This document shows, in pieces, positions 3,650-24,455 of a stretch of 36,679 nucleotides of DNA. The stretch lies in NCBI RefSeq assembly GCF_000003605.2, contig NW_003147281.1, forward strand, positions 42,941-79,619, written 5' to 3'. How positions within the stretch are numbered: position 1 is the stretch's first letter; each line of letters opens with the position of its first letter. The notes under the pieces are model-generated. The model was not told where the DNA came from and ran no database searches. It saw only the letters and a program-made list of their open reading frames with translations. The translations under genes were made by a program, and so were the position numbers. This DNA comes from Saccoglossus kowalevskii (taxonomy: Eukaryota > Hemichordata > Enteropneusta > Harrimaniidae).

Positions 3650-3903
3650 CGTAGATTATCACTATTGATTAGTACATGTAATTAACAATGACTCTGATGA
3701 TGGTTTAATCAAGACTAATAATGGTTTGACAACGCAGCCATTTGAAATCCATGAACTGATCCGTGAAAGGTGTTCCCGTAGATTATCACTATCGATTAGT
3801 ACATGTAATTAACAATGACTCTGATGATGGTTTAATCAAGACTAATAATGGTTTGACAACGCAGCCATTTGAAATCCATGAACTGATCCGTGAAAGGTGT
3901 TCC
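3650..3903. repeat. 127-bp tandem duplication, two nearly identical copies
   Basis: Copy 1 (3650-3776) and copy 2 (3777-3903) both start CGTAGATTATCACTA and end GAAAGGTGTTCC. I see a single difference, ATTGATT versus ATCGATT. The start of a third copy, CGTAGA, follows copy 2. Such identity next to heavily diverged repeats implies a recent event. Confidence 0.95.
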
Positions 3904-4383
3904 CGTAGACATTGTTGGTTCACATGTAACTTTAATCTAACAGCATTTATCAAATGACACTTAAAATCGTAACGATTATTCAGTTTGTTCGCTATTGAAG
4001 GGTATTAATTTTAACACCCTATTTTTTCACAAATTTGATACGATCTTAAGATTTTTATTTTTGAGCTGATCGTTTTTACCATGAATTACGCAACAATAAA
4101 ACTGTGCTAATAATTTCCAGTTCTACAGTATTAGAGTTTATCAGAAAAAACATAAGCAAACAGTCAACCATCCTTAAAACCAAACCAATAAATAATGCAG
4201 GACCTATAGTCACATAAGACATTATACTGTACATCACAGATGGACACGAAATATGAAAGAAAACAAAGTACATTTTATTAATAATTTCAGTTTACTTTGC
4301 ATTTTCATTTATATTATGTTACATACATGCTTTATTTGGATGTGAACCTGCATTATAAAATGTTATATGGGAAACTATATCTC

Positions 4384-6619: not shown

Positions 6620-6703
6620 CTATGCTTCTTTTTCATCTTTTTCCTCTGAGTTTGGTGCTGTGTCTAGACCACTGTCTGATGATAAATTTAGTTCATCAAA
6701 ATT
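6620..6703 (-). CDS. RABL2: RABL2 coding exon 7 and stop
   Basis: Twenty-seven codons and TAG after acceptor GTTTTTTACAG. It reads NFDELNLSSDSGLDTAPNSE then EKDEKEA, the acidic, variable RABL2 tail. NFDEL follows ELD of exon 6, as ELENFSLE does in vertebrates. Confidence 0.92.
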   Translation of the reverse strand, partial: NFDELNLSSDSGLDTAPNSEEKDEKEA

Positions 6704-9700
6704 CTGTAAAAAACACAAATATTGCATATAATATTTTCCTGATAAAATAAATCTATGAACCAGCATATATAGAAAATTATTGTAAACTGCTATAATTTGG
6801 TGAATAACTAATTTTTATGAATTTGGGAATTGTGTGGACTTTAGGCAAGGTTAATTTTACCTGTGTAAGCAAATTATGCTGTAAAATCAAAGCTATGTTT
6901 TTTTATTATTACACTATAATAAGAGTGAAGTTAAAATGACTGTCATCTAGAACACTGTGTCTGGTCAGTAATTTTCATTAGTTGGTTTTCGTAAAAAATA
7001 AATAGCAGTCAAATTGTATCTGTTTACAGTATCCACTCATCTCATCCCATCATATCCCATCCCATCATATCCCATCCCATCATATCCCATTCCATCATAT
7101 CCCACCCCATCCCATAATATCCCATCCCATCATATCATATCCCATCCATCCTACCCCATCCCATCATATCCCATCTCATCCCATCATATCCCATTCCATC
7201 CCATCCCATCCATCATATCCCATCTCATCCCATCATATCCCATCCATCCCATCCCATCCATCCATTGATCACACACAATTATACAAAACGAAGAACCTTC
7301 AGATATAAAATAGTAGACTGGACTTACATCTAACTCTCTCATAACTTCATCCATAAAATCTGTTGAGTTTTCTTTATATTCTGTAGCTAATTTAATTGCA
7401 TTTCTAAATAACTGAAAGTAGAATAGATAATCAGGTTTACATTAGGCCAAGTACTTACAGTGAAAATGTGATTGTGTGTAATGTATGTAACCATCTTATC
7501 AAAATACTGGTGTTGTAAATGGTTGACAAGATTCATGACAAAATTATTTGTAGATGCGAGAAATTTCAAACTTCAAACACAAATTTTATTATCGTTATTA
7601 AGTGTAAGTTTCTTCTGTTCCAAAGATTGAATTATATATAACATTAATATTTCACTCACTGAACAATATTTCACTAAAATATGTGATTAAAAAGCAGCTT
7701 AGATATTGAAAGTATCAAGTTCTGTGTATAAACACTAGTGTAAAAAGGCAGCTATTTTAACCAAAGTCTGCTTATAAGGCGTCATAATGACACAGGGTTG
7801 TGCTGGGACAGTGCTTCCTATGACGACAAATGAGTTGGGACTTATTGCATGCAAGACTTCACATGGAACTTTCTTGTCCCTCTAATGTTTGTCGTAATTT
7901 CATTCTTGTCCCTGTATTCTCCAGTGTCTTTGCTTTGATAAATTACCACATAATATTAATAATTATTTTGACCCAATATGCAAATAGAAAGCTGATACCT
8001 TACCTTTACTACATTAGTACCATCTGAAGCTGATACAAAATAGAAGGGCATATTGTGTTTCTTGGCAAAATTGAAAGCTTTCTTTGTAACATTGTAATCC
8101 ACGTCAATTTTATTTGCTGCGCATATACACGGAATGGAGGGTCTGTATTCTCGTAATTCTTTAAACCAGTTTGGAAGATTTTTATACGTAATTTTTCTAG
8201 TTATGTCAAATACCTGGAATGGAAAAGAAGGAGGAAATAATGATCGAGTCAAGTTAAATAAGAAATATATCTGGCAGGAAAAACCTCAAACTTTAGCCGC
8301 ATGTGAAATGGGTGTGTTTGAAAGTATTATACACTTTTTCCTTATTTGGACAATGTATGTCATAATCACAGTTTAGGGGGGAATATTACGTTAATTCTTG
8401 TTTCATGAAGTGAGTTGTGTTATAATTTCCACATAGATCTATTAACACTTTGACAATGAGGAAATACAAATGTTCACAAAATATGTGCACATTTTATTGC
8501 AATATTAATAATGTACCATCATAATTTACAATGTAAAACAAATATAAGGGTGTGTGGAAAAATAAGATCTTCATCCTTATCTTAATACTTTTGATGAAAA
8601 ACAATTTTTGACATGATGTTTTCCTACATACTTGTCTGACAACAACATCCTCTGACCTGACCTGACCTGTGTTGTACTGACTGCATTTTTTATAATGTAA
8701 TGTGGACGTGAATTACCGATGTTAAATTACGATCTGTTGCGATGATCTTTTACACCCTATTTACAACAGTCACAATGAACACTGTAATTATTCAGAAAAG
8801 TAAAATGATGTTCAATGACGAAGTGCATTTTGAAAGGGGTGGGGGATAAGTTAAACTTAAACAAAAATAGGAAAATCCCCAAAAACTGAGAAGTACTTAG
8901 TTGAGCATGGGCACAAAGTCGGTCAAGTACAGGTTTTCAGTACAGTACAAGTCAGGTTAACAAAGACAGGCAATTATCATAAAATCCACTGTTATTTCGG
9001 CCATCAGTATATGTTATCATTAAATTGCATGTGATAATAAAAGACAGATAAAAACTCAACAAATATAAAATACTTACAAGTATACAACAATGTGCTTGAT
9101 GATAATATGATGGATGCATGCTACTAAATCTTTCCTGTCCGGCTGTATCCCAAAAATCTAACAAGAAATACAAATCATAGTTACCAGTGAGCATTATCTA
9201 TCAATACTACAGCCAACAATAACCAATTTTGAACAATAGATAACCAAATATTTCTCATATGAGTATATGCTCTATTTGAAGCCGCATTTCCTCTTTTGCA
9301 CTGTCTCATTTTAATAGAAGCCAAAGATTCCAATCCAGATTTTAGAGAGTTATGCAAATTGCAAAATGTTTGAGGGGAAGTTCATTTATGCAAATGTGTA
9401 CACCCTTTAGAGCGTAAAGTAGTGGGTTTCTATTTCCTGATTCTATAGCCTAACAATGCGTGAAGAGTTTCAACCAATATAGAATCCATAAACTGGACCA
9501 TAAATGCATGCATTCGAATTACGTGATACATACTACCATAGTTAGCATTGACGGATATTTATTTTTAGTGACACAAAACTGACTTTTAGAAAGTACATTC
9601 AGTAAAATCATTATTTTACTACAAAACAATAAAAAACATTGCACAACAGAAACAAATTACAAAGTTTAAAATTTACAAGATTCAGCAATTTATAAACATA

Positions 9701-12700
9701 TGAAAATACATTACAATATTTCTATAGTTATACTCCTTCTATGAGGTGTTGCTGTATTACTTGAACACATCGTCTACTGAGGTCCTTTCTTTTACCATGC
9801 AATTTGGTTTTCTGTGTACAGTGAAGGCTTTCAACAGGCAATGTTTTAAAGCAATGTTTAATCATTTGTGTTGTATTGATCAATGTACTGCAAAAACTCA
9901 TTATAGAGATAAATTGAAATGTAAACTAACAAGCTATTGAAATTATTTAGTCATATCCTCAACTAGAAATTGTCTTTGGACTTGACATTAAATGGAATTC
10001 ATCATCAATTTCCTCTGTTATCAGTACATGAAGGTCATATTCTCTTTTCAACTGGTGTTTCCTAATCTAAATATAAATCTTGTTCACACAGTTCAATATT
10101 GTCAATGTCTGTACCCTTATTTATTAGATGTTTTTAATTCCTTTAGGTATCTGATGTTCTTTATTTTTTCCCTGTGGAGTGTTTGTTGCCATTGTAAATG
10201 TCCAATGTCACATGTCTTATTTATTTCCTTGACTTTTGCGTTCAAAATTATTTTATCAGTATTTTCATTACAGTTTGATCTATTTTTGTTGGTTAAGTTT
10301 TCACTTTGAAAAACCATTCACTGTTTCTTTATTTACTTGAGCTGGTTCTTTTAGTAGGAAATTGTCTGGAGTCAGTACACGGTTGTTATATTTAATAAGT
10401 GTTTTTGTTTCATAACAAGTACCCACACATATCAACAATTATATCTCAAATGTTAATATTTGTGGTATATTTTAAGCCTAATCGGACCGGAAGTGAGAAT
10501 TTGTTACTAAATGTCCAAACATATTTTAGTATGTAGTAAATACTGCAGTAGTGTGTGTTAGCATTGATACTCACCTACAACTACTTCTTTACTATTAACT
10601 GTTGTATTATATCGGAATAACGTCAGTGCATATGTTGATAACTGTTGTGGTTGGCTGAAGAAAATCATCAAGGAAAACAGTATACAATAGTAGTCTCATA
10701 CTAGCACTATGCTAAGCATCATTTTACTTTTGACTATCATATTTGCTATCAGGCTTCTCATCACCATGTATGTTGTTTGAAATCTGCACCTCACATGCTT
10801 TTTTTGTTTTTTGGAACTTTGCATATTGGTGATGTGCACTACAACGGTGGAATGGGGAAATGTTTTTGTTTTAGAAGATGTTCTGTGGATTCAAATAAAC
10901 CTTTAATGATTTTATTCAAAAGCACTACTAGTATTTAATAATAATTGTTGAACATATATATCTTCTTCTCGTGGTTATGAATAATCTTAATATAACAACA
11001 AATTACTGCATCACTGATTCATTTGTCAATGTTCCCTTGGATGAGAAACAAGACCATAGGGGGGGGGGGCAATTCTTCAGTAGTGCATATGCTTCCATGA
11101 AAGACAGATCAAAACAAGTTAATATGGTTAAGCATACAATAAAAAAAAATACAATTTTTGGTGTATGTGTTTTTCTATTGGAGATGAGCCCCTACTAGAG
11201 TAAATGCTATATTTGTAAATTACTGTGATATTAACAACCAACTGCCAAGTAGTTCCAAGCAGTAAATGAATTAGTGAGAGATTTATAACAAACACAATCA
11301 GGTTCTTTAATTAAAAGGATACTATCCATCCATTAAAAAACGCTCCACTAATCTGTAACAAAGAAAAAAACACAACATCATTAAAATGATTAAATAAAAC
11401 TCAATATGGCAACACTTTACACACAAAAATATCAAGTATATATCTTATAATCTTTTCAATATCATAACCTTGGATTATTCAGTTACCATGGTAACAATTA
11501 ATCAATGCAACAAGTTCAAGTACAATAATTTCATTACAAATTTCTTGTAAGGAGTAATACCATTAGAAACTACAAGTAGATTTATGGAAGAAAAACAATT
11601 TATATATTTTATTACAGAAAATAATGCAATAAAACATTGTTTTTGGATTTTTTCAATAGGGGATTTTCCGTACAATTGCGAGATCTCGCGAGATGCATGA
11701 AAGACGCGCGTCGAACGTCTGCCGCAAAAATAGAACGATTTGATTTTGAACTCGAATTTCCTTATTTCGTAGCTCACACCAACCGGCCGATCTTCGACAG
11801 AGGAATATTGCTTCCGAATACCCTTACTTAATCGAAATTGCCTATCATCAAATGTGGACAGCACATTATTAAGCATGGAAATGTCCCCAAAATACTTTCG
11901 CGTTTGTCGAATCCCACGCGATGTTTGATGCCACTACGACGCTATGACCTTTGTTTGTCCTGTTTTTACGTTCGATTTCACGCATAACGCGTGATTCTCG
12001 CAGTGTACGGAAAATGGTCTATTAAATAAGTGTAGGGTAGTTTTTTTTTTTTTATATAATTTTCACTGCAGAATTTTGTTTCTAACATTTCCTTGGAGCA
12101 GGTCATTTTTTTCAATCCCCTCCCAATTTCGAAAGATCAACCCTTATGACAAATTCATCAGCTGTGTTCTCAACAGAAAATAAATACGAGGGGTGGAATT
12201 GCTTCATCAGTTTAAAAAAGTACATGTATGAGGCTATTACCTATCCATGTGAAACATAAGACAGAGACATAAAGTATGTTGTACCCTTCTTAGCGGAAAG
12301 TACATCCTGAATTGTTTAACTGTTTCACCACCAGTTCCTACTTTTCATCACAAATTCACAAAATAGTTCTGTTTATATTCTGCACTTTTCTTTACAAGAT
12401 TAGGACAAAAATAGCCAAACTTTTTAAGTAAAAACTGAAAATTGACTCTAATTTTGTCTGTTGGCTCCAAAATTAGGGTTCATTTCCAAAAATATTAAAG
12501 AACATGAAAAAAAAATGCTGAAAAATTTGGTCTGGTGGTGAAAAGATTAAAGATGAATTAGTAAAAATGAAAACTAATTCACCTCTCATTATACATTCAT
12601 AAATTGCCACTTGTATTTTCTTTCATTTTGTAGATAACCTTTAAGAAAATAAACCTTGAGGCAAATCTATTGTGTCTCATATCTGATGAGAACACTGCAT

Positions 12701-15700
12701 TAGATTCATGTGATATATAAATACATATGTACAGTGTATGACATGTACAATTTGTTTTATACAAAATAACATTTTCAAGAAAGATTTTTCCTTTTTTTCA
12801 GAGAAACAATATTTTTGAAATTTTTGTTTTGATTCAAGACCAGTTTTCAGATTACATAATACATTACAAATTTATCAATGTTTGTTTTTGCTGTGTTTTG
12901 AATATTTGAATTCAACGACAAAATATACTGAATTTTAATCAATGTGTTTACTGATATACCATATTTGCTCTATTAGAAGTGTACCCCAATCAAAGCACAT
13001 GTACAGGTGAACTCAAAATCGCATTTGTTTTATACAGAATAATTAAAACATTATTTATTTTGACTCTAGAAACTCCTCAGTAATTAAGATATTTGTATGC
13101 GCTACTAAAAGAGCAAACACAGAAATCACATTGCCATGATGTATCAGGCAACATCGCCTGAAGAAAAAAAAAAAAAAAAAAATAGTTCAGACAACTAGTC
13201 GCCCGCCAGCTTGTCACCACAATTAGTTGCCATGTGTAACAGTTATTGTCACAGAGTTGCCTCTTTTGTTGCTGGATGCATTGTCTCAAAAATTGCCTCT
13301 TGCAAACTGAGTACTGTAAAATCCTTTATTTTAGCTAGAATTAATTTTCGCTGAAAAAACTTTTTGTGTGTTTTATATGGAATTTATTTTCACTGATTTT
13401 CAACGAGTTGAATGTAAAATATAGGGTAAAAGGTATATTCGCTGGATTTTATTTTCACTGAATCATTCCTTCAGCGAAAATAGCGAAAATAAATTCCAAG
13501 CGAAAATAAAGTATTTTACAATATACAAGACATCGTTTCTAAGTATCAGACCTTTAAATGTCATGCAGTAAAAATAGCAATGCCTGCAAGATAGTATTAG
13601 CCATGATAACAAAGTAATTGTTGATACATTAAATGGTTTCTCTCAAAAACCAAGGCATTCTACAGTGTATTGGCAGAGAACCAGAAAATTTTAAGCACCA
13701 GAAAAGACCTACATTGTGGATGGCGCACAATATTAATAACTAAATGATGAGTAAATTAGACATGAAGTCACATGTCAACAAAAGTAGAACAAGCTAGATT
13801 AACATCATTAGGTAAATGAATGACAATACCGATAATATAAAGGGACCACCACTAAGAAATTATAAATAGGTCAAGGTTTGATGGTTATCTATTGAATAAT
13901 GACATCACCAAAGCTAAAAGGTAAAAAAAGTCAGTATGTTTCCAGTAACCCAATTCTACATTTTGTTCGACAAGCCTGGAATGTTTTATGGCTGAGCTTT
14001 AAAGTGGCCACTTGAGGGCATTCACTTCCTGTTTCCAGTTGCATGCTGAACTAATTATTCATGTCTTGAGAAAATTTTATTTGAAAAAGAATCCCATATT
14101 TAAGATTATAGATCAACAATGTTGTCATCGTAAAATCTGTATTAGAAGCTGCATTCCTTTTGAACAATTGAGAACCAAAAATTCACCATTTCTCATATGT
14201 GTCGATGCTTGTAGAAGCCGCAAGCCCTCATTTTAATAGTAGCCGCAGCTTTTAATACAGATTTTACAGTAATAATCAGAAGCTACAAAAGATGATGTAC
14301 TAGTATGCCTCTAATCATCCTAATTATTTTGAATGCTTTCAGACTGTATTGGCTCTATTAGTAGCACATGTTCTTAGATAAATTACACAAGAGTGTCTAT
14401 GATCAAAATAAATCATATTTTAATGATTCTGAATACAATAAATGCAATTTTTGGTTTCTATTTGAGATGCACGTTATTCATTTATTTGGTCTATGAGTGT
14501 AAGTAACATGAAATCCTAACATGTGCAAGTAATAATCATAAGTCAGCTAAATTAAATAAAAAATTTACATTTAACCAAGAATGCTGGTACATGACCTAAA
14601 CTATACATGGTTGTAAATTGTAAACAATCTAGTGACACATACAAAAAATAATATCTTGTCTCCCCTCACAGCCTTTCAAGCACTGTGGAGATAATGCCTC
14701 GATTTTTTAGAAAAACGCCATAATTGCATTTACCTCCACTTTACTTTAATCAATACACTTACTACATACACTGTATACTTATATTATTCTCCCAATAACC
14801 TTATATTATTTACAACACATCCTAAATGGATCTTAAACAACATTTTTTTGACAATGTTTATTAAGTGTAGATTTTAATATACATTTGTAAATAAATTCAA
14901 CCAACAATCACACATGTTTCTCCAATAATAATGTCATTGTGGTGATTATTGCACAGAACTAAAACACAACAGTAGCTCAGAAGAACAGAATTTTTATCAA
15001 GCCATGAAACAGGTATGTATTTATTAATTGTGGAAACAGAGAATGTAAACCATTAATGAAATCCAAATACATCTATGGCCCCAAAATATTCATGTTTATA
15101 TCATAGGTGACAGTTAAAAACATGCGCATCACATTTTTTTCCCAGAATTTTAGAAAAAATCAGTCTTCATGAAAAATTATAAATGTACATGTAATGACAA
15201 ATTAAAAAACAAGACAACCTGCACGTGTTGATTTTAGTAAACAAATTTAATTGACCAGAATATTTGTTTTCGCCTAATACTCTACTAGTAGCTTGACATT
15301 TGAATAAGCAGCAACAAACAGTACAGACTAAGCATAACTAGTTTTAAGCTGGCCATAAGCTAGATTAGCTTTCTGTCACTTATCTAAGCCATGCAGAGTG
15401 ATCTGTCTAAATATGTCTCATCCCGAATATTACAAAGAATATGTTGAAATAATTGATACTTGTTTTAGAAAATATAGTCATATCTTGCCAATACGGCGTG
15501 ACATAATATATACATGTACATGTATGTACAGGCTACATGTACATTTAGTGATTAATGCTATACTGCAAACTGTTTAATTTATTTTATGTTATCAATTTCG
15601 TGTAAAATAATCTAACATTTAGTTGACCTTTCAACATCAAAGTAAATTTTTCTTCTTTTTTTAAATTAATAAAATAAAACAATCATTTTTTTCAAAATAT

Positions 15701-18700
15701 TGAGCATGACTTGTAGACAATTATGAATCATGTCCATTTTGACGAAAATTATGCAAAACAATTATAAAAGCAAATTTTTTGCGGAAAAAAATTTTAGCAC
15801 TTGAAGAATTTAAAGTCATACTTTTTTGGTGTCTGACACACAAAAAATTTTTTCTTGTGAAAAAAAATCAGTTTACAATATTCTGTGATAGCTGTAAAGA
15901 AATAATAGTGTAGGTCAGTGTGACTTCTAACAAAACCAAGTCACAATGAAATTCCAAAAATCAAGTTTTGTCTCCTTGGTGACTGCTGGGGAGAGATGTA
16001 TTCAAGATAAAAATAAATATGATATGTGGCTTTAAAGAACTTCTGAAGGCATGAACTAAACTATTGTGACTTGATCATGATTTTTTTTATTTTTAAAGTT
16101 ATTTTGATTATAAAATATCAGGGATTTTTTTAAACAAAAGGGAAGCACCCTCATGCCATGCGCCCCCTTACCCTGGGGAGCAGATTCTCTGCCAACCATA
16201 AAATTCTGATTGATCAGGGATCACATGTGGCCACAGTTTTCAACTGTGACCTGTCTGAGAGTAATTTTGGTACCATTTTAACTTAGAATTATCCAAAACT
16301 CCACACCCTGGTAGGGAGAACCCTATCTCCCCCATTTGATAACGCCGCTGAATTGCAGTGCTCCCTTCTTGCAGTTTTTTTTTCTAGAAAAACCCTGAAA
16401 TATAACTAATTTATTCAACTTTAAACACATCCTCAGCAGAAAGTCTCTAGCTGAATGGGAAACAAAAACGCATCATCAAATGATGCGATGATCGGTTATT
16501 TTTAAAGGTTACTATCAATCTATGATTTTTGTTGCGCCATTGGTGCACCAGAAATTGAGCATAACGAGTTGCATCATGGGAAAATCTTTGTGCGTCGGTG
16601 ACAGCCAAGATTGCACCGGTGAAGGTATATCAAAATGAAACAGCAAGTGGAGCAACTAGATGCAATAAATAACCTCATTACAGTTACCTTTAAAAGACAA
16701 CATGGCCATTAACAAGTAATATACAGTGTTAGTGATAGAAAATTGCACCTGCTTCCTCATCCAGAGTGACGTAGTGAGTACACAAGGATAACATTCTGAT
16801 TGCACTTGTTTATATATGCAGGCCATATAGCAAAAGAAAAATATCTGATGTGAGGTTTTAGTTACAAAGTATATCACATAAGATTTGCCTATAACCACAA
16901 ACAGTGTGATGGGATTTGATGTAATTACAGCACCATAGGGCACAGGGTTATTTTCATATAAATTGTCTCTCTGCATGCAAGCATCCAATTACATGTCAGT
17001 ACTGTAATATAGCAGTATTTTATCATGAAATTCAGTTATTATTTCTCTTTGATAAATGAATTATTAAATATATGAACCAGAAAATGAAAGAATAATTTAC
17101 AAAAGATGAAATATGAATGCTACTTTGTGTTGCATGGCTGTTGATTATCAATAATAATTGGTTTAGATGTACACTTAACACAACATATCACGACAGTCAT
17201 CTTGGTTAAAACACAACGTCAGCTCCTATCAGGGGTTTCACTAAAAACTAAAAAGTCAAACTCTAATGTTCAAAGTTTAATGGCCATATTTCAGAAACAC
17301 CATGGCTAAACACAAACAAAATGTAGCATAGGCTATAATTTAAATGTTGACACAAGCTGAATTTCAAGAACCCATCAGCCACAATGTACATATGTATAAT
17401 AAAATTAGGCATTATTGAAAACAAAATAGCCGTCAAACAGCCACTTTGAATCAAATTTATGCATGTGTTTGGGTGTACCGGTATTCTAATTATGTTTAAC
17501 TGAACACGACCTTTGACCCACATCTGTACATGCTGCTACGTGTAGCATGGGACCTATATCAAACGCACATAGGATGACAACTGCCATAATTATTATGTTA
17601 GAGCCCCACCTCCTCCTGTGATGCATCCCACAATGCAACAGGTTTCAAAGTAACTACATATAACATATGTGCAATGTGCTCCAATTAATCACGTCTTAAC
17701 TCATGTCAAGTAGTACCGGGTAATAATAAACCATGTTTTTCCATTAATATCATTAATTTATCTCAGATAAAGTAATTTGGTGTAAAATGTACTGACGATT
17801 GTAATTTAGACCAAATACCGATAAGAGATCATTCTGTGTCTGAACATATTGCTCTAAATAATGGAGTTTTGATCAAGTTTTCCCAGTAGAGGAGAGCATT
17901 ATCTAGTAGTTACATATACATGTTAGGTTTTGAACAATACAAGGCAATATATCTAAAAAAACTGTCAACAAGTTGATTGGGATGACTGTTAGTTCTTAAA
18001 ATAAAGCATAATAGCTACATTGTAGATATATTTCTTGGTAGAGAATAGCGTCCTTGTCGTATAGCGAACATTCACATGTACATGTAATATAAACAAACAA
18101 ATGGTACCATTACTTATTCATGAAGCCCATACCACAACACAATGGAGCACAATGACAGTTAGTCTGAGAGTACTGCAAAATTTACTTTCAAGGTGCAACT
18201 AACGTTTTTTTTTTACAAAGCCATGAGAGCGTTGGATACTTTCACTGTGCATGCATATTATCGCTAATTGATGAAATACTTGAGTGTCATGAGAGTCAGT
18301 AATGCACTCGGCTGCAATATTGTTGAACAGTAATTCACAATAATGTGGAAGGAAACAGTAATGTACTTCAAGTAGTGGACAATACTCTTGACTGTCATAG
18401 CTGATTTGAGAAAAGATAAATGACATATCCTCGGGGGCGGACATCCGGGCATTTTCTATCGCCTGGCAATCCTCGCGGTGAAAACAAAGACCAAAAACTC
18501 ACAGAAAACGGTACTTTGCGATGGTTGATGAGAGTCCCCTGAACAGTGTAACAAGATTAGCCCTACGTGTGTAACATATATGAATTTGGTTGTTCAGGAT
18601 TACTTCAAAGTTGAGTTTGTGTTGTTTTCTCGAGTTTTTACCGGCCCCACCGGCGTTCCACAGCAGCGCACACAAAGCCCATAGAAATACGTGGTACAGT

Positions 18701-21700
18701 GGTGCCTTAGCAACGTAGAACGTCTGTGACGTAGCTCCGCCCCCGAGGATACATGTATGCTGTTGCTTGGGAATTCCAGCGCTAAGCAACATACCTATAT
18801 TTGCAGTATTTGTCAACAAATAAATCAACAAATGTCACATTTAGATTTTTGTCTCAACTACAATAAATCTCAACATAAATTGCAGCTTGAATTTTTTTCA
18901 CATTACGTGATAATACACAACTAATTTAAGTATGTGGTGTTCAAAGTTTACTCAAACATAGCGATGGTTATGCGAGTACATGTAAAATAGTTGTCATACA
19001 TATATGAATTCAAAAGGAAGAAACCTAAAGGTTATACAGTCAAGAGACTGGTTTGCATCTTAATGGAATATGCTTCACACAAAATATTGATTTTGAAATA
19101 ACAGTCCATGTTCGACTAATGAATAGAGAATCCTGGTGCGATTCTGTGACTTGAAGACACTCTAAGAGATTGTAAACTCAATTACAACTGAACCCAGAGA
19201 AATGCTCAGTGGTGTATGGATATTGGCAAAAAACTACTGATGTGAATACTTTATGAATACCATAAATGTTGCAATAATTACAATCCACAATATTGCTTGG
19301 CATGTCAAAGGCTTCAAACACAAAATGCCGACAATACATCTTTATGATATACCAATAAGTGAGTTGTTGTCATGGTTACATGAACATATACATGTACAAG
19401 TACTGAAACATTTTTTATTTATACAGGAATGATACGGTCATATTAATGCTTCAGTTCACTCGCATTATTAAATTTTTAGTTTTACTTCTTAATTCAGTTA
19501 ACTTTTAAAATATGCATATTTATTCGATTTATTCCCAACACTACGCAAATACAGAACCAATTAAACATGACAGATAACGATTATTTACCCAAATGCTATA
19601 ACACATTGAATTCTGTCGTATTTTACATGCATAGGCAAGCAGTATACATTCCCTAGGCCTTTTAGTTAAGTGTGAACAGTTTCACCATGCGTTGTGACTG
19701 AAATGCCAGGTTTTGAACTTCCAAAATATAATAAAAGGTATTAATATGTTATTAGTAATTATTACAAAATATGAATGTAACAAAATGAATAGTGTTATTA
19801 AATTACTTGACATGCTTGGAGATTTACCTGGAAAAACACTGGTCAGGATCATAATAATAAATTTTAAACATGTATATGATTTAATAAAAAAAAACTGAAG
19901 AATGCAGCTTGGTTTAATTACTGCTTAATATTAGATGATAAAAAAATATTTTTTCCTGGCTTTAAAACTGAACAAGAGCACAGACAAATGATCATTATGC
20001 TACATTGTACCACATACATTAGAGGACGGGAAACTGTGTCAAACATTAACATGACAGAACGATGTTCCGTGTGACGTCTCTTGGTGCGTCATAATTGCTC
20101 TATTATGTTAGTGTCATGATGCGTTCAATATTAAAAAATACCCAATCGAATACATTCCCATGACTAATTTACATGACAATACAACACGTTAATTACTTTT
20201 ATTGTATTCAACATCATGCCAAATGAGGTCCATTGTTTATCGAAAATTCCAGAGTAGAAGGCCCTACTCTACATTTGTATAGTGATTGTTTGGAGTGCCC
20301 TGCCAACCATGTATATCACAAGCAATCAGTAGTTATATGTAACCTGTTGTTAAAACATGCTTTATCAAATATGTTCACAGCAGACAAGATTAGACAAGAC
20401 TGGTTTTTTTTTAAAAGATATCTTATTATCGTTTCCTTCCTGCTCAACAAGTGCTGTGCAAGGATATTTGTGTTTTGAAATTTATTCACTGAAAACCGAA
20501 TTAATGTTTTTTTTTAATTTTGTAAGTGATGAAACTTGTTTTGGAATATGTGAAAGCAATCTCACATGGTGAATGTTTGAGAAACATTACCATATATCAA
20601 ATACTTGATTCATCTTTCCCCGTGTTTTCTTGTTTCTTTGATTACACTATATAGCAAACACATTGACTATTGATAATTAAAAACTGTGAGTCCCATGAAA
20701 TGTACATGTTGAGTACTAGAACTACAATGTACATTATGTACATTTACGGGGAGGACAATATATTTCAGACTTTGGCATCAATACCTTGGTAACGTAATTT
20801 ACAGGTTTTACCCTCTAAGAAACAGAGATGAGAGTTGATCCATGTGGAAAATCAACTTTACATGTGCTCGCCAATTGTAATGAGAAAATAATCCTAACCT
20901 CCGCAGATCCGCAGTCCTCATTAATAAACCAAATTTCAAATATCATGACTTCTGTACCTAGATCATTTCTAACAGGGTATTATTGTCATTTCTTAAAAGA
21001 AACTAGTATCTAATAAAGAGTACCGGTAACTGACTTTCCTAGAAACTATTAACAGATCAGTTACATGTAACATAAGATGTATTTGTAACTTTCACATACA
21101 CACAATTTAAATTCATATTTCCTCAGATTAATGTTGTACCAGGGTTGTCCACTGAAAACCATGCCATAATTTACAAGACACATAAACCTTTTTACCACCA
21201 GTTTACAATATAGTCCTGTTGATAGTGTGCATTTTCCTTCAGAAGATTAAACAAAAATAGCCCTTTTTTTTTGAGTGAAACTGTTTCAAATTGACTCAAA
21301 TTGTGTTTGTTGGCTCATTTCAGGTTCATTTCCAGAAATATTGAAAAATATAAGAAAAAAAGTGCAGAAAAATTTGGTTGAGAAAGACTGGTGGTGAAAA
21401 GGTTAAATATTGATACTGTAAGTGCATTAACTATTCACTTATTTTAAATTTTGCAATTTTTTCTGGAATTAAATCCATCTATTATATAAAAACATGTAAA
21501 ATAACAATAAAACTCATTGTTTCTTTGTCAAATTTGTGAAATTAAAAATAAATGATTTCACACTACGTAATTTTTATCTATTGTAACAAAAAGAGTATGC
21601 AAATTATATAGTAATATTAGGAATTCACAGCAGATTATAAGAATATGATGTTCTTACTTGTACAAAAAATACAGGTAAAATCCAGAGTTCCTGTAGTGTG

Positions 21701-24455
21701 CAATCCTTATCAAAAAACACGGACTACCCGACAGTGATATAGGTTAGTTTGAAATGAAAAGGCTACACTACATGTACACCCAAGGCACCAAACATGTAGA
21801 TAAATCATTTAAAAAAAAATGATGCATAAAACATAAAAATATTCCAATGTTCTTTACCTCTCATATTGCCGGAAAATACATGTTGAATACAATGAATGAC
21901 AATGCTATATTTACTGTTAGAAGCACATTTCCAAAACTGTGTAAAATAAAATAGGAAAGCTGCCAATGACTTAATAATTTCAGTCCATCAGCTTTGAATC
22001 ATTTGAATTGAGTAACAATGCTGGGTTAAACTTGAACCACTGTGATGTATGAAAAGACGTGCAATTGTGACACAGGCATTGTAATTTACTCTATAGCATG
22101 TAAAAACAGGCCAGGCTCTAAAAAAATCAAAATATCAATATGAAGAGATCACAGCAGCAGAGAAAATTGAAATTATGAAAGGTTTCAACCAAGCAATTTT
22201 CATCACGAGTTTTGAGCCCTGCAGCAGACACACTATTTCACCCAGACAAACATTTCCTATCTCAGTCACAATACTGTGGAATACTTTATTTTCGCTGGAA
22301 TTAATTTTCGCTGAAAAGGTATTTTAGGGGGTTTTGTATGGAATTTATTTTCACTGATTTTTAATGAGTTTAATGTGAAATATAGGAAAAAAAGTATATT
22401 CGCTTGGATTTTATTTTCACTTGATTCATTCCTTCAGTGAAAATGGCGAAAATAAATTCCAAGCGAAAATAAAGTATTCTACAGTATCATGTATATGTCA
22501 GAAAAACAATTCACATACAATGAGTGTGGGATTTCCAACACATTATTCAGAGTACTGTGATTGATCTATTACAAGAAAATCTGCAATAGAAACCCATACA
22601 AATAAAAAATTTGAATCATTTAGACATAAATTATTTTTACAATAAAAACATTTCTGTAATTTACGTAAGCACATATGCTACTAAAATAGCATATATGATA
22701 TTACCGAGTACCGGTATACATCATGTAGCTTCCAAAATAAACCTATTATTATTATCTATTTTAAGAGAACCGAACATTCATACTTCCAAAATTGTCTGAA
22801 CAGAATGTTTGTTTTACTCTATTTAGTGCAGGCTTGTAGCTTTTCAAAATAATTTAATTGAGACAAGCAATTGTCTGAAACTAATTCAACACACTCTTCA
22901 GTAGATAACGTTAACAAATCTGTTCGCCCAAGGGTGATTATCTGATTACTTTGAGTTGTGCCATTTACTTTCCCAGAGCCGACTACTGACAAAATCTAGT
23001 TAATTGCGCTATAAATAATAGAAATGTTCAGATATAAAGATAATAATATAGAAAACATAAAAGTTTATTAGGCCAAATAAAAGAAATTTGCTGTGTTCGA
23101 TAAAATGGTAAATAAAAAACACAGAATAGGTAAGTAAATTTTATTTTTATATTCCCAAATGTGCAGTACTCAGGTTATTGTTAGAACATATCATGATCTA
23201 CAGATATGAAAACAGACATGCAAATTGACTAATTCTCATGTCAGATTTCCTTTGTAGAAGTCACCATTGAAGTAAATAAAACAAAAAATTACAACAGTGT
23301 TTATTCGCATAAAGGAAATATCATATTGTCTGCCTTGAAACAGCATATCTTCACTACGTGGTGAATTAGATAAACCTAAGACAGTCATTTTAAAGACTTG
23401 CATGGCTATTTGAAATATATACATTATGTATATATTTATACATATATATAAGTATGTACCTTGTCAATTTTTATGAAAATTATGCTTAAAACTTGCCCAG
23501 CTAGTAAACTAACAACAACAATTTGTTCTACAATTTAACAAATATTTATTACAGAAAAGTAAAATATCACTGAAAATATCAATTTCATAGTTCACTTCAT
23601 ATTTCATATTTAGTTTAAGGCATTGATTAAAAACATGTACCAGTACTCTCATTATTCAAACATATTACAAAATGTACAATGCCACATTTATGCCATGCCA
23701 TGTTTACAACAAATAAGGAAATTATTATATCAAGTAATTTACTTGACTACACAAGTTTATATCAACGTCAGCTACAATGTAATGTGGTGACTGTTACACC
23801 ACGTAACAAAACACAACAGGTAAGCCGATTACGATTGTTGTTGTTTTTGACAAAACACCACGAATCAATCAATACCCTGTTAGTGATGGCATGTTCACTG
23901 ATTGACTCGTGTAAAAGACAATACAGTGAACAGGATAACAGAGGAAAATGTCATTTCAAGGCACTGGCGTAACATAAAAATAAATGTATTACTGTGTTGA
24001 TTCCATGACGCAGCTCGCTAAACGGAGCGTCGTCGTTGTCATGAACAACAGAGCGTGAACATGAAGAACAAAATTGCGAAACTCTTCATATCTGCGGCAA
24101 TTGTAGTCTCTATAAGACATCCCGGACATGAGATCACAAATATCCGGCTAAATAGCCATTTGCATTGTTTTGTGAAGACATTGCATGAACGGAAGTACAG
24201 TGGCAACGTTCACAGCATTCCCAAAGTACATGTCTGTTTTCATTCAGATCTCACCGGTAAAGACAAACCGTTAGCCGACAACACACTGACCATAACTAAA
24301 CCACATACCATACGTCAACCAAATTTCGCCTGTATACAAAAAGTATATACTTACTTCGATTTTCCTACAGCAGAATCTCCTAAACATATGATTTTCACAG
24401 AATTTTCCCTGTCTATCTTGGCGTTTTCCGGGTCCATAGGTGCTGTCTCCGCCAT
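6620..24455 (-). CDS. RABL2: Rab-like protein 2 (RABL2), seven coding exons
   Basis: The exons are 24355-24455, 11323-11352, 10575-10654, 9078-9157, 8004-8213, 7328-7411 and 6620-6703. Joined, they give 669 nt, or 222 residues plus a TAG stop; the human protein is slightly longer. GTPase motifs are complete: P-loop GDSAVGKS (26-33), WDTAGQE (73-79), NKID (131-134) and SAS-DG (158-160). The RABL2-specific block QPQQLSTYALTL (from residue 45) replaces the usual Rab switch I. The C-terminus EEKDEKEA has no cysteine, so it would not be prenylated, as known for RABL2. In other animals and algae RABL2 is a ciliary GTPase that works with CEP19 to start intraflagellar transport at the basal body. Intron phases are 2, 2, 1, 0, 0, 0 and every junction is GT-AG. 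The start MAETAP was chosen for its strong Kozak context and conserved distance to the P-loop; the open frame continues upstream, so an earlier start is possible. I recognise the family with high confidence. Confidence 0.95.
7031..7266. repeat. CCCATCATAT-type microsatellite in RABL2 intron 6
   Basis: About 235 bp of irregular CATCCC and CATCATATCCC units. The plus strand is C-rich, so the RABL2 transcript strand is G-rich with regularly spaced GGG runs. It sits in the 624-bp last intron, about 60 bp from the exon 6 donor. Confidence 0.95.
7328..7411 (-). CDS. RABL2: RABL2 coding exon 6
   Basis: Twenty-eight codons after acceptor CTACTTTCAG, starting LFRNAIKLATEYKENSTDFM and ending DEVMRELD before donor GTAAGTCC. 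It matches the last helix of the GTPase fold (family form FMDEIFQELE). Confidence 0.93.
8004..8213 (-). CDS. RABL2: RABL2 coding exon 5 (NKID and SAS motifs)
   Basis: Seventy codons between acceptor TTCCATTCCAG and donor GTAAGGTATC, phase 0 on both sides. It begins VFDITRKITYKNLPNWFKEL, contains CAANKID (guanine specificity) and ends FVSASDGTNVVK. It is the longest and best conserved exon. Confidence 0.95.
9078..9157 (-). CDS. RABL2: RABL2 coding exon 4 (switch II, WDTAGQE)
   Basis: It starts with AT of Asp71 after acceptor TTGTTAG, then FWDTAGQERFSSMHPSYYHQ and AHCCIL, and ends at donor GTAAGTATT in phase 0. It carries the catalytic Gln of DxxGQ and the family's YYHxAHxCI signature. Confidence 0.94.
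9266..9345. mobile_element. probable MITE fragment in RABL2 intron 3
   Basis: TATGCTCTATTTGAAGCCGC and TTTTAATAGAAGCC resemble ends of the CTCTATTAGAAGC family found at 14130-14267, but intact paired ends are not visible. Confidence 0.35.
10575..10654 (-). CDS. RABL2: RABL2 coding exon 3 (switch I region)
   Basis: Acceptor TTTCTTCAG, then C completing Tyr44, 26 codons beginning QPQQLSTYALTLFRYNTT and ending KEVVV, then G of Asp71, followed by donor GTGAGTATC. It matches the family's diagnostic STYALTL segment and the two following beta strands. Confidence 0.93.
10655..11322 (-). other. RABL2 intron 2, U12-type (minor spliceosome) intron
   Basis: On the minus strand the donor reads GTATCCTTTT (11313-11322), an exact match to the U12 5' splice site RTATCCTTT. 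TTCCTTGAT (10667-10675) fits the U12 branch consensus TTCCTTRAY. Its branch A is 13 nt before the 3' splice-site G, within the usual 10-16 nt. The last 20 bases lack a long polypyrimidine tract. All other introns of the gene have ordinary GTAAGT/GTGAGT donors. Confidence 0.88.
11059..11069. repeat. G homopolymer, 11 bases
   Basis: A run of about 11 G inside RABL2 intron 2 (C on the transcript strand). It is prone to length variation and sequencing error; no function is assigned. Confidence 0.8.
11323..11352 (-). CDS. RABL2: RABL2 coding exon 2, 30-nt microexon (LVERFLMDG)
   Basis: After acceptor TTGTTACAG the exon supplies A (completing Lys34), nine codons for LVERFLMDG, then TA of Tyr44. 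This is the conserved helix after the P-loop. An in-frame TAG overlaps the donor, so splicing must occur exactly here. Phase 2 at both ends. It is too short for ordinary ORF finding; homology and matching splice phases identify it. Confidence 0.9.
11482..11495. promoter_or_regulatory. RFX X-box-like palindrome GTTACCATGGTAAC
   Basis: A perfect 14-bp palindrome that matches the RFX X-box RYYNYYWWRRNRAC. It lies in RABL2 intron 1, 130 bp upstream of microexon 2. RFX factors drive ciliary genes in animals, and RABL2 is ciliary. An intronic site is less usual than a promoter site, so the role is inferred. Confidence 0.45.
11655..12023. mobile_element. CpG-rich non-autonomous TIR element
   Basis: Left end AATAGGGGATTTTCCGTACA continues ATTGCGAGA. 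The right end, reverse-complemented, reads AATAGACCATTTTCCGTACA then CTGCGAGA. That gives about 28-bp imperfect inverted repeats bounding 369 bp. The interior is unusually rich in CpG for this window and lacks a convincing protein. The overlapping open frames across it (about 11502-11876 and 11637-11831) are therefore dismissed. Confidence 0.7.
12315..12551. mobile_element. MITE with TTTCACCACCAG ends, copy 1
   Basis: Starts TTTAACTGTTTCACCACCAG and ends CTGGTGGTGAAAAGATTAAA, 20-bp inverted repeats with two mismatches. The interior shares GTTGGCTC and GGTTCATTTCCA-type blocks with the copy at 21183-21407. Non-coding, 237 bp. Confidence 0.85.
12959..13122. mobile_element. MITE of the ATTTGCTCTATTAGAAG family
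   Basis: CATATTTGCTCTATTAGAAG at the left pairs with GCGCTACTAAAAGAGCAAAC at the right when reverse-complemented. Short and non-coding. It lies directly before the TACTGTAAAA MITE at 13312, as at 4384-4700 where the same two families are nested. Confidence 0.65.
13312..13522. mobile_element. MITE with TACTGTAAAAT ends, copy 2
   Basis: Begins TACTGTAAAATCCTTTATTT and ends AAATAAAGTATTTTACAATA. The interior GAATTTATTTTCACTGATTT and ATTCCTTCAGCGAAAATAGC match copies 1 and 3. Length 211 bp. Confidence 0.85.
14130..14267. mobile_element. short MITE, GTAAAATCTGTATTAGAAGC ends
   Basis: GTAAAATCTGTATTAGAAGC (14130) pairs with GCAGCTTTTAATACAGATTT plus TAC at the right, about 23-bp inverted repeats around 138 bp. 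Its termini resemble a hybrid of the TACTGTAAAA and CTCTATTAGAAGC families. A further CTCTATTAGTAGCACAT end lies at about 14352. Confidence 0.7.
16119..16397. mobile_element. hAT-like non-autonomous element, copy 1 (CAGGG...CCCTG)
   Basis: Starts CAGGGATTTTTTT and ends TCTAGAAAAACCCTG, flanked on both sides by AAATAT. The body (GGATCACATGTGGCCACAGT, GGTAGGGAGAACCCTATCTC) is shared with 30462-30756. CAGGG ends are typical of hAT elements, but hAT normally makes 8-bp duplications and I see only 6, so the superfamily is tentative. Confidence 0.7.
18428..18749. mobile_element. TA-flanked MITE with TCCTCGGGGGCGGA inverted repeats
   Basis: A perfect 14-bp inverted repeat, TCCTCGGGGGCGGA at 18428 and TCCGCCCCCGAGGA at 18736, bounds 322 bp and is flanked by TA on each side. 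That is the target duplication of Tc1/mariner-type transposases. The interior is GC-richer than its surroundings. No transposase is encoded, and open frames of 60-110 codons on the minus strand cross its borders and look spurious. Confidence 0.78.
21183..21407. mobile_element. MITE with TTTCACCACCAG ends, copy 2
   Basis: Begins AAACCTTTTTACCACCAG and ends CTGGTGGTGAAAAGGTTAAA. The interior matches copy 1 at 12315-12551 with moderate divergence and small indels. Immediately followed by a relic of the TTCACTGGGTTTT family (21419-21545). Confidence 0.82.
21419..21545. mobile_element. degraded MITE relic, TTCACTGGGTTTT family
   Basis: TACTGTAAGTGCATTAACTA then TTCACTTATTTTAAATTTTG aligns with 6058-6180 and with the left half of 29489-29690. 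ACAATAAAACTCATTGTTTC matches the 6058 relic's right part. Confidence 0.5.
22272..22486. mobile_element. MITE with TACTGTAAAAT ends, copy 3
   Basis: Begins TACTGTGGAATACTTTATTT and ends AAATAAAGTATTCTACAGTA. TGG near the left end and TCT near the right end are single changes from the perfect ends of copy 1. The interior TTTTCGCTGGAATTAATTTT is the least degraded of the three copies. Confidence 0.85.
24355..24455 (-). CDS. RABL2: RABL2 coding exon 1 (residues 1-33 plus two bases)
   Basis: It encodes MAETAPMDPENAKIDRENSV followed by KIICLGDSAVGKS, the first beta strand and P-loop. It ends AA before donor GTAAGTATA, phase 2, so Lys34 is split. ATG at 24453-24455 has A at -3 and G at +4. Confidence 0.93.

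Follow-up and report, generated by a model that had tools for sequence, protein, structure and literature searches.

Does the RABL2 gene of the hemichordate Saccoglossus kowalevskii carry an intron that is removed by the minor spliceosome? The window analyzed here is a stretch of 36,679 nucleotides (nt) of contig NW_003147281.1 (positions 42,941 to 79,619 of the forward strand), and all positions below are counted within it. The window contains an intact RABL2 gene on the minus strand, comprising seven coding exons (669 nt including the stop codon, 222 residues) and six coding introns, all six with GT-AG ends. Judged by its sequence signals, intron 2 is almost certainly a genuine GT-AG U12-type intron, spliced by the minor spliceosome. 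The parts of the gene and the signals of intron 2 are as follows:

24355..24455, minus strand: RABL2 coding exon 1, from the ATG, with the P-loop GDSAVGKS
11353..24354, minus strand: RABL2 intron 1, 13,002 nt, GTAAGT...TTACAG, U2-like, phase 2
11323..11352, minus strand: RABL2 coding exon 2, a 30-nt microexon encoding LVERFLMDG plus the TA of Tyr44
10655..11322, minus strand: RABL2 intron 2, 668 nt, phase 2, predicted U12-type GT-AG
11313..11322, minus strand: predicted U12-type 5' splice site GTATCCTTTT, 9/9 to GTATCCTTT
10667..10675, minus strand: predicted U12-type branch site TTCCTTGAT, 9/9 to TTCCTTRAY
10655..10656, minus strand: 3' splice site AG of intron 2 (CTTCAG)
10575..10654, minus strand: RABL2 coding exon 3, begins QPQQLSTYALTL and contains the G2 motif TYA
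9158..10574, minus strand: RABL2 intron 3, U2-like, phase 1 in Asp71
9078..9157, minus strand: RABL2 coding exon 4, DFWDTAGQ...
8004..8213, minus strand: RABL2 coding exon 5
7328..7411, minus strand: RABL2 coding exon 6
6620..6703, minus strand: RABL2 coding exon 7, includes the stop codon

An earlier note on this DNA had placed a U12-type intron at 11322..10655 of the minus strand, in phase 2 within Tyr44, and the gene model returned exactly these ends and this phase. Intron 2 opens with GTATCCTTTT and closes with TTTTCCTTGATGATTTTCTTCAG, splitting Tyr44 (TA/C) directly ahead of QPQQ. Its boundary admits no shift, even by one base, because the nucleotides at its two ends differ. The 5' splice site and the branch site each match the U12 consensus at nine of nine positions, as had been claimed, and the branch A (position 10668, within the branch region TTTTCCTTGATG) lies 13 nt from the exon. 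This spacing falls within the optimum of 11-13 nt given in PMC3584512. U12 introns are biased against phase 0 (PMC7367187), and the phase of intron 2 accords with that bias.

Motif expectations were taken from a first-order Markov model with 60 simulated copies of the window. Exact GTATCCTTT occurred once on the two strands of the window (0.38 expected), and that copy was the 5' splice site of intron 2. Exact TTCCTTRAY occurred twice (1.7 expected), and only the intron 2 copy had an AG 10-16 nt downstream. The probability of finding both U12 motifs in one GT-AG intron was approximately 1.4e-8 under this model.

Using position matrices, intron 2 scored as U12-type rather than U2-type. The U12 matrix was built from the 12 U12-type rows of the 19 introns in Table 1 of PMC7367187, with the seven U2-type rows excluded; several of the 12 rows are orthologous, so a second matrix was made from six non-redundant rows, and both sets contain a row sharing all ten bases of the intron 2 5' end. 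U2 scores rest on general background frequencies for U2 splice sites. The intron 2 5' splice site scored +11.6 bits as U12 and -6.2 bits as U2, and its branch site scored +11.3 bits as U12. With the 12-row matrix, one of 4,435 GT sites and one of 3,402 AG sites in the window reached the intron 2 scores, in both cases the intron's own ends. The top-scoring GT and the top-scoring AG of the window under this matrix belong to a single intron, whose limits are set by the protein reading frame. With the 6-row matrix, one of the 4,435 GT sites again reached the intron 2 score and one GT..AG pair passed both thresholds. The remaining introns had been said to look U2-type, and all five were U2-like at the 5' splice site, with a negative U12 score, a positive U2 score (2.4, 3.5, 3.6, 7.0, and 7.5 bits) and four to six mismatches to GTATCCTTT.

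If the intron is of this type, its 5' end would be recognized by U11 and its branch site by U12, and the minor spliceosome would remove it. Exon 2 (30 nt) would then have a 3' splice site of the U2 type ahead of it and a 5' splice site of the U12 type behind it, so the two machineries probably define it jointly through a bridge. This bridge might consist of U11-59K with U2AF, by analogy with other genes for which it has been published; U11-59K has been reported bound to the U2AF complex, and inhibition of minor small nuclear RNAs (snRNAs) led to skipping of exons adjoining minor introns (PMC8034651).

The products of splicing failure were obtained by translating possible exon joins, joins to exons 6 and 7 excluded. 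Retention of intron 2 gave a stop at the junction after 43 residues, where the TA that opens the Tyr44 codon and the first G of the intron form a TAG at 11324-11322. Two joins that the major machinery could make by itself also ended early: the exon 1-exon 4 join yielded 44 residues and the exon 1-exon 5 join 37. Skipping of exon 3 gave a stop after 43 residues. Exon 2, flanked by two phase-2 introns, is symmetric, and leaving out this exon and no other preserved the frame, giving 212 residues. Each of these products can be read off the DNA, as can the signals and the frame; the ones that would arise in cells are a matter of expectation. When minor splicing fails, intron 2 may stay in, so that translation meets the TAG at the exon-intron border. 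The major machinery may instead connect exon 1 with exon 4 or with exon 5, with a frameshift and a stop by residue 44, or it may take over the 3' splice site of the U12-type intron and leave out exon 2 alone, at the cost of the ten residues that follow the P-loop. Since retention and the two detours truncate the protein and exon 2 skipping shortens it, full-length RABL2 is expected to rely on minor splicing. In PMC8034651, nonsense-mediated decay spared aberrant isoforms that had premature stops, so truncated RABL2 products rather than loss of messenger RNA are possible.

Several observations weigh against the U12-type assignment. The base preceding the 5' splice site is an A, and phase-2 GT-AG U12 introns disfavor A and G at that place (PMC7367187). 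Eight of the 12 bases ahead of the final three in intron 2 are pyrimidines, compared with 9-11 of 12 in the other five introns, and this fairly pyrimidine-rich tail after the branch site blurs the criterion of an absent polypyrimidine tract. With the 6-row matrix, eight of 3,402 AG sites reached the intron 2 branch score. In intron 4, whose 5' splice site is U2-like, the branch region also resembles the U12 type fairly well (6.4 bits vs. 11.3 bits for intron 2), and the branch score alone would consequently not decide the type. Finally, the U12 snRNA (RF00007) gave no match in the genome (572 Mb, 4,830 contigs; 44 of 18,940 first-look candidates scored) and none in 14 control genomes; because the 14 controls were equally empty, this search supports no conclusion.

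Three rival readings of intron 2 were weighed. It might be a U2-type intron whose likeness to the U12 consensus is accidental, and its 3' end, pyrimidine-rich and closing with CAG, would be usable as a U2 site. The 5' splice site, however, scored far below the U2 range of the other five introns, and the joint probability of the two U12 motifs is minute; the U2 reading was rejected on these scores and is very improbable. It is harder still to credit that the locus is a decayed gene copy in which intron 2 is unused, since the 669-nt frame is open and every coding intron keeps its GT-AG ends. A further reading would add to the U12-type explanation without excluding it: slow or competing splicing of a U12-type intron could act as a regulatory switch, either through in-frame skipping of exon 2 (a 212-residue RABL2) or through retention that tunes the amount of protein. 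The symmetry of exon 2 suits such a switch, and a comparable join is on record: in a cell line carrying a U12 snRNA mutation, MAPK12 was reported to have a U2 5' site spliced to the 3' end of the U12 intron downstream (PMC8329584). Human RABL2A occurs in 165- and 229-residue forms (PMC9714508), and a predicted mouse isoform 3 lacks exons 3-5 (PMC3464206); if those exons equal exons 2-4 here, the mouse isoform would correspond to the exon 1-exon 5 join that the major machinery could make by itself. Against the switch, the exon 2-skipped form would probably be a poor GTPase, and this reading is considered unlikely.

Beyond the assignment of intron 2 as U12-type, a wider proposal is conceivable, though doubtful: that the phase-2 intron in the Tyr44 codon dates back as a U12-type intron to the last eukaryotic common ancestor and has been kept as such in ciliated animals, with the 30-nt exon as a built-in reporter of minor-spliceosome activity to the cilium. 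If this were true, the amount and form of RABL2 would report that activity, with retention and the detours to exons 4 and 5 truncating the protein near residue 40, and exon 2 skipping would be the sole near-full-length alternative among the failure products.

The identity of the gene was supported by several features of the predicted protein. It contains a Ras-superfamily GTPase domain (Pfam Ras, 1.1e-39) and ends in EKEA, with no C-terminal prenylation motif. The G2 motif T(Y/F)A, a published mark of RABL2 (PMC4736243), is present as TYA at residue 51. Asp71 stands two residues ahead of the mouse Asp73 numbering (PMC3464206), and Gln78 two residues ahead of Gln80 of the GTP-locked mutant (PMC10356136). 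Five NCBIfam families were matched, with small_GTP alone above its cut-off. The best 60 of 824 matched sequences in the PDB were Ran/Gsp1 and Rab/Sec4 chains, none of them named RABL2. Six RABL2 peptide patterns found no matching DNA in viral_contigs; in genome_contigs there were 14 stretches with a pattern match, none of which encoded a relative by tblastn.

The genome was also searched for a protein component of the minor spliceosome. PF05253 (zf-U11-48K) had one match in the genome and a match in one of the 14 controls. As a candidate U11-48K the genomic match was set aside because an open frame close by holds a second CHHC block, an arrangement resembling that of GTSF1; we take it to be a GTSF1-like tandem CHHC protein. 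The two CHHC zinc-finger blocks lie in two nearby open frames at 940-1656 on the minus strand of L001, and the second block was identified by eye and was unmatched by Pfam.

The window as a whole has a G+C content of 33%. Rfam at gathering scores returned no matches in the window, and none of 10 other long reading frames, chosen by eye, matched Pfam at E 0.01. Three repeats were observed: a 27-base-pair tandem array at 1-2254 (approximately 84 copies, 84% match), a 127-base-pair unit at 3650-3909 (two copies, 99% match), and an array of the pentamer CATCC/GGATG at 7038-7263, within RABL2 intron 6.

A minor intron in RABL2 is already known at the gene level from human RABL2B, so the case here is a clean further example and not a surprise. 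Its interest lies in a well-formed minor intron in RABL2, probably outside vertebrates, and in the testable claim that the dependence of RABL2 on minor splicing may be old. A literature search on RABL2 and minor splicing, with supplements and U12 intron databases outside its scope, returned one paper that ties the two (PMC13216214) and no report that places the Tyr44 intron in an invertebrate or gives its codon position. The U12 intron databases may already list the RABL2 intron in other species.

Among known U12 introns, those of RNF121 in maize and opossum (Table 1, PMC7367187) share their first ten bases with intron 2; both rows belong to the matrix, and this identity and the matrix score are therefore not independent. 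The opossum RNF121 intron is likewise phase 2 and GT-AG. A difference is that the exon here ends in A, whereas U12 introns favor a T at that place.

With respect to the RABL2 family, seven ancestral introns have been inferred (PMC4736243). The gene here has six coding introns, the last just ahead of the C-terminal tail, and one of the ancestral seven seems to have been lost from 24455-6620 or to lie outside the coding part. Neither 'U12' nor 'spliceosom' occurs in the main text of PMC4736243. Mouse exon 5 starts at the Asp73 codon and intron 3 here splits the matching Asp71 in phase 1 (PMC3464206); the substitution and the printed primers suggest that the mouse intron is in the same phase.

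The closest comparison is with human RABL2B. The earlier note had tied RABL2, as a ciliary GTPase, to minor splicing, and that tie is in print: PMC13216214 treats RABL2B as a minor-intron gene and links it to minor splicing in a study of human cells and zebrafish. In human cells heterozygous for ZCRB1, retention events affected a set of genes that included RABL2B, a figure legend names skipped as well as mutually exclusive exons of this gene, and RABL2B protein was lower after ZCRB1 small interfering RNA (PMC13216214). The likeness to intron 2 holds at the level of the gene, since where the human intron lies is not stated in the passages of PMC13216214. At that level, human RABL2B is a reported and the gene here a predicted minor-intron gene, and the human one is reported to be sensitive to loss of a U11/U12 factor.
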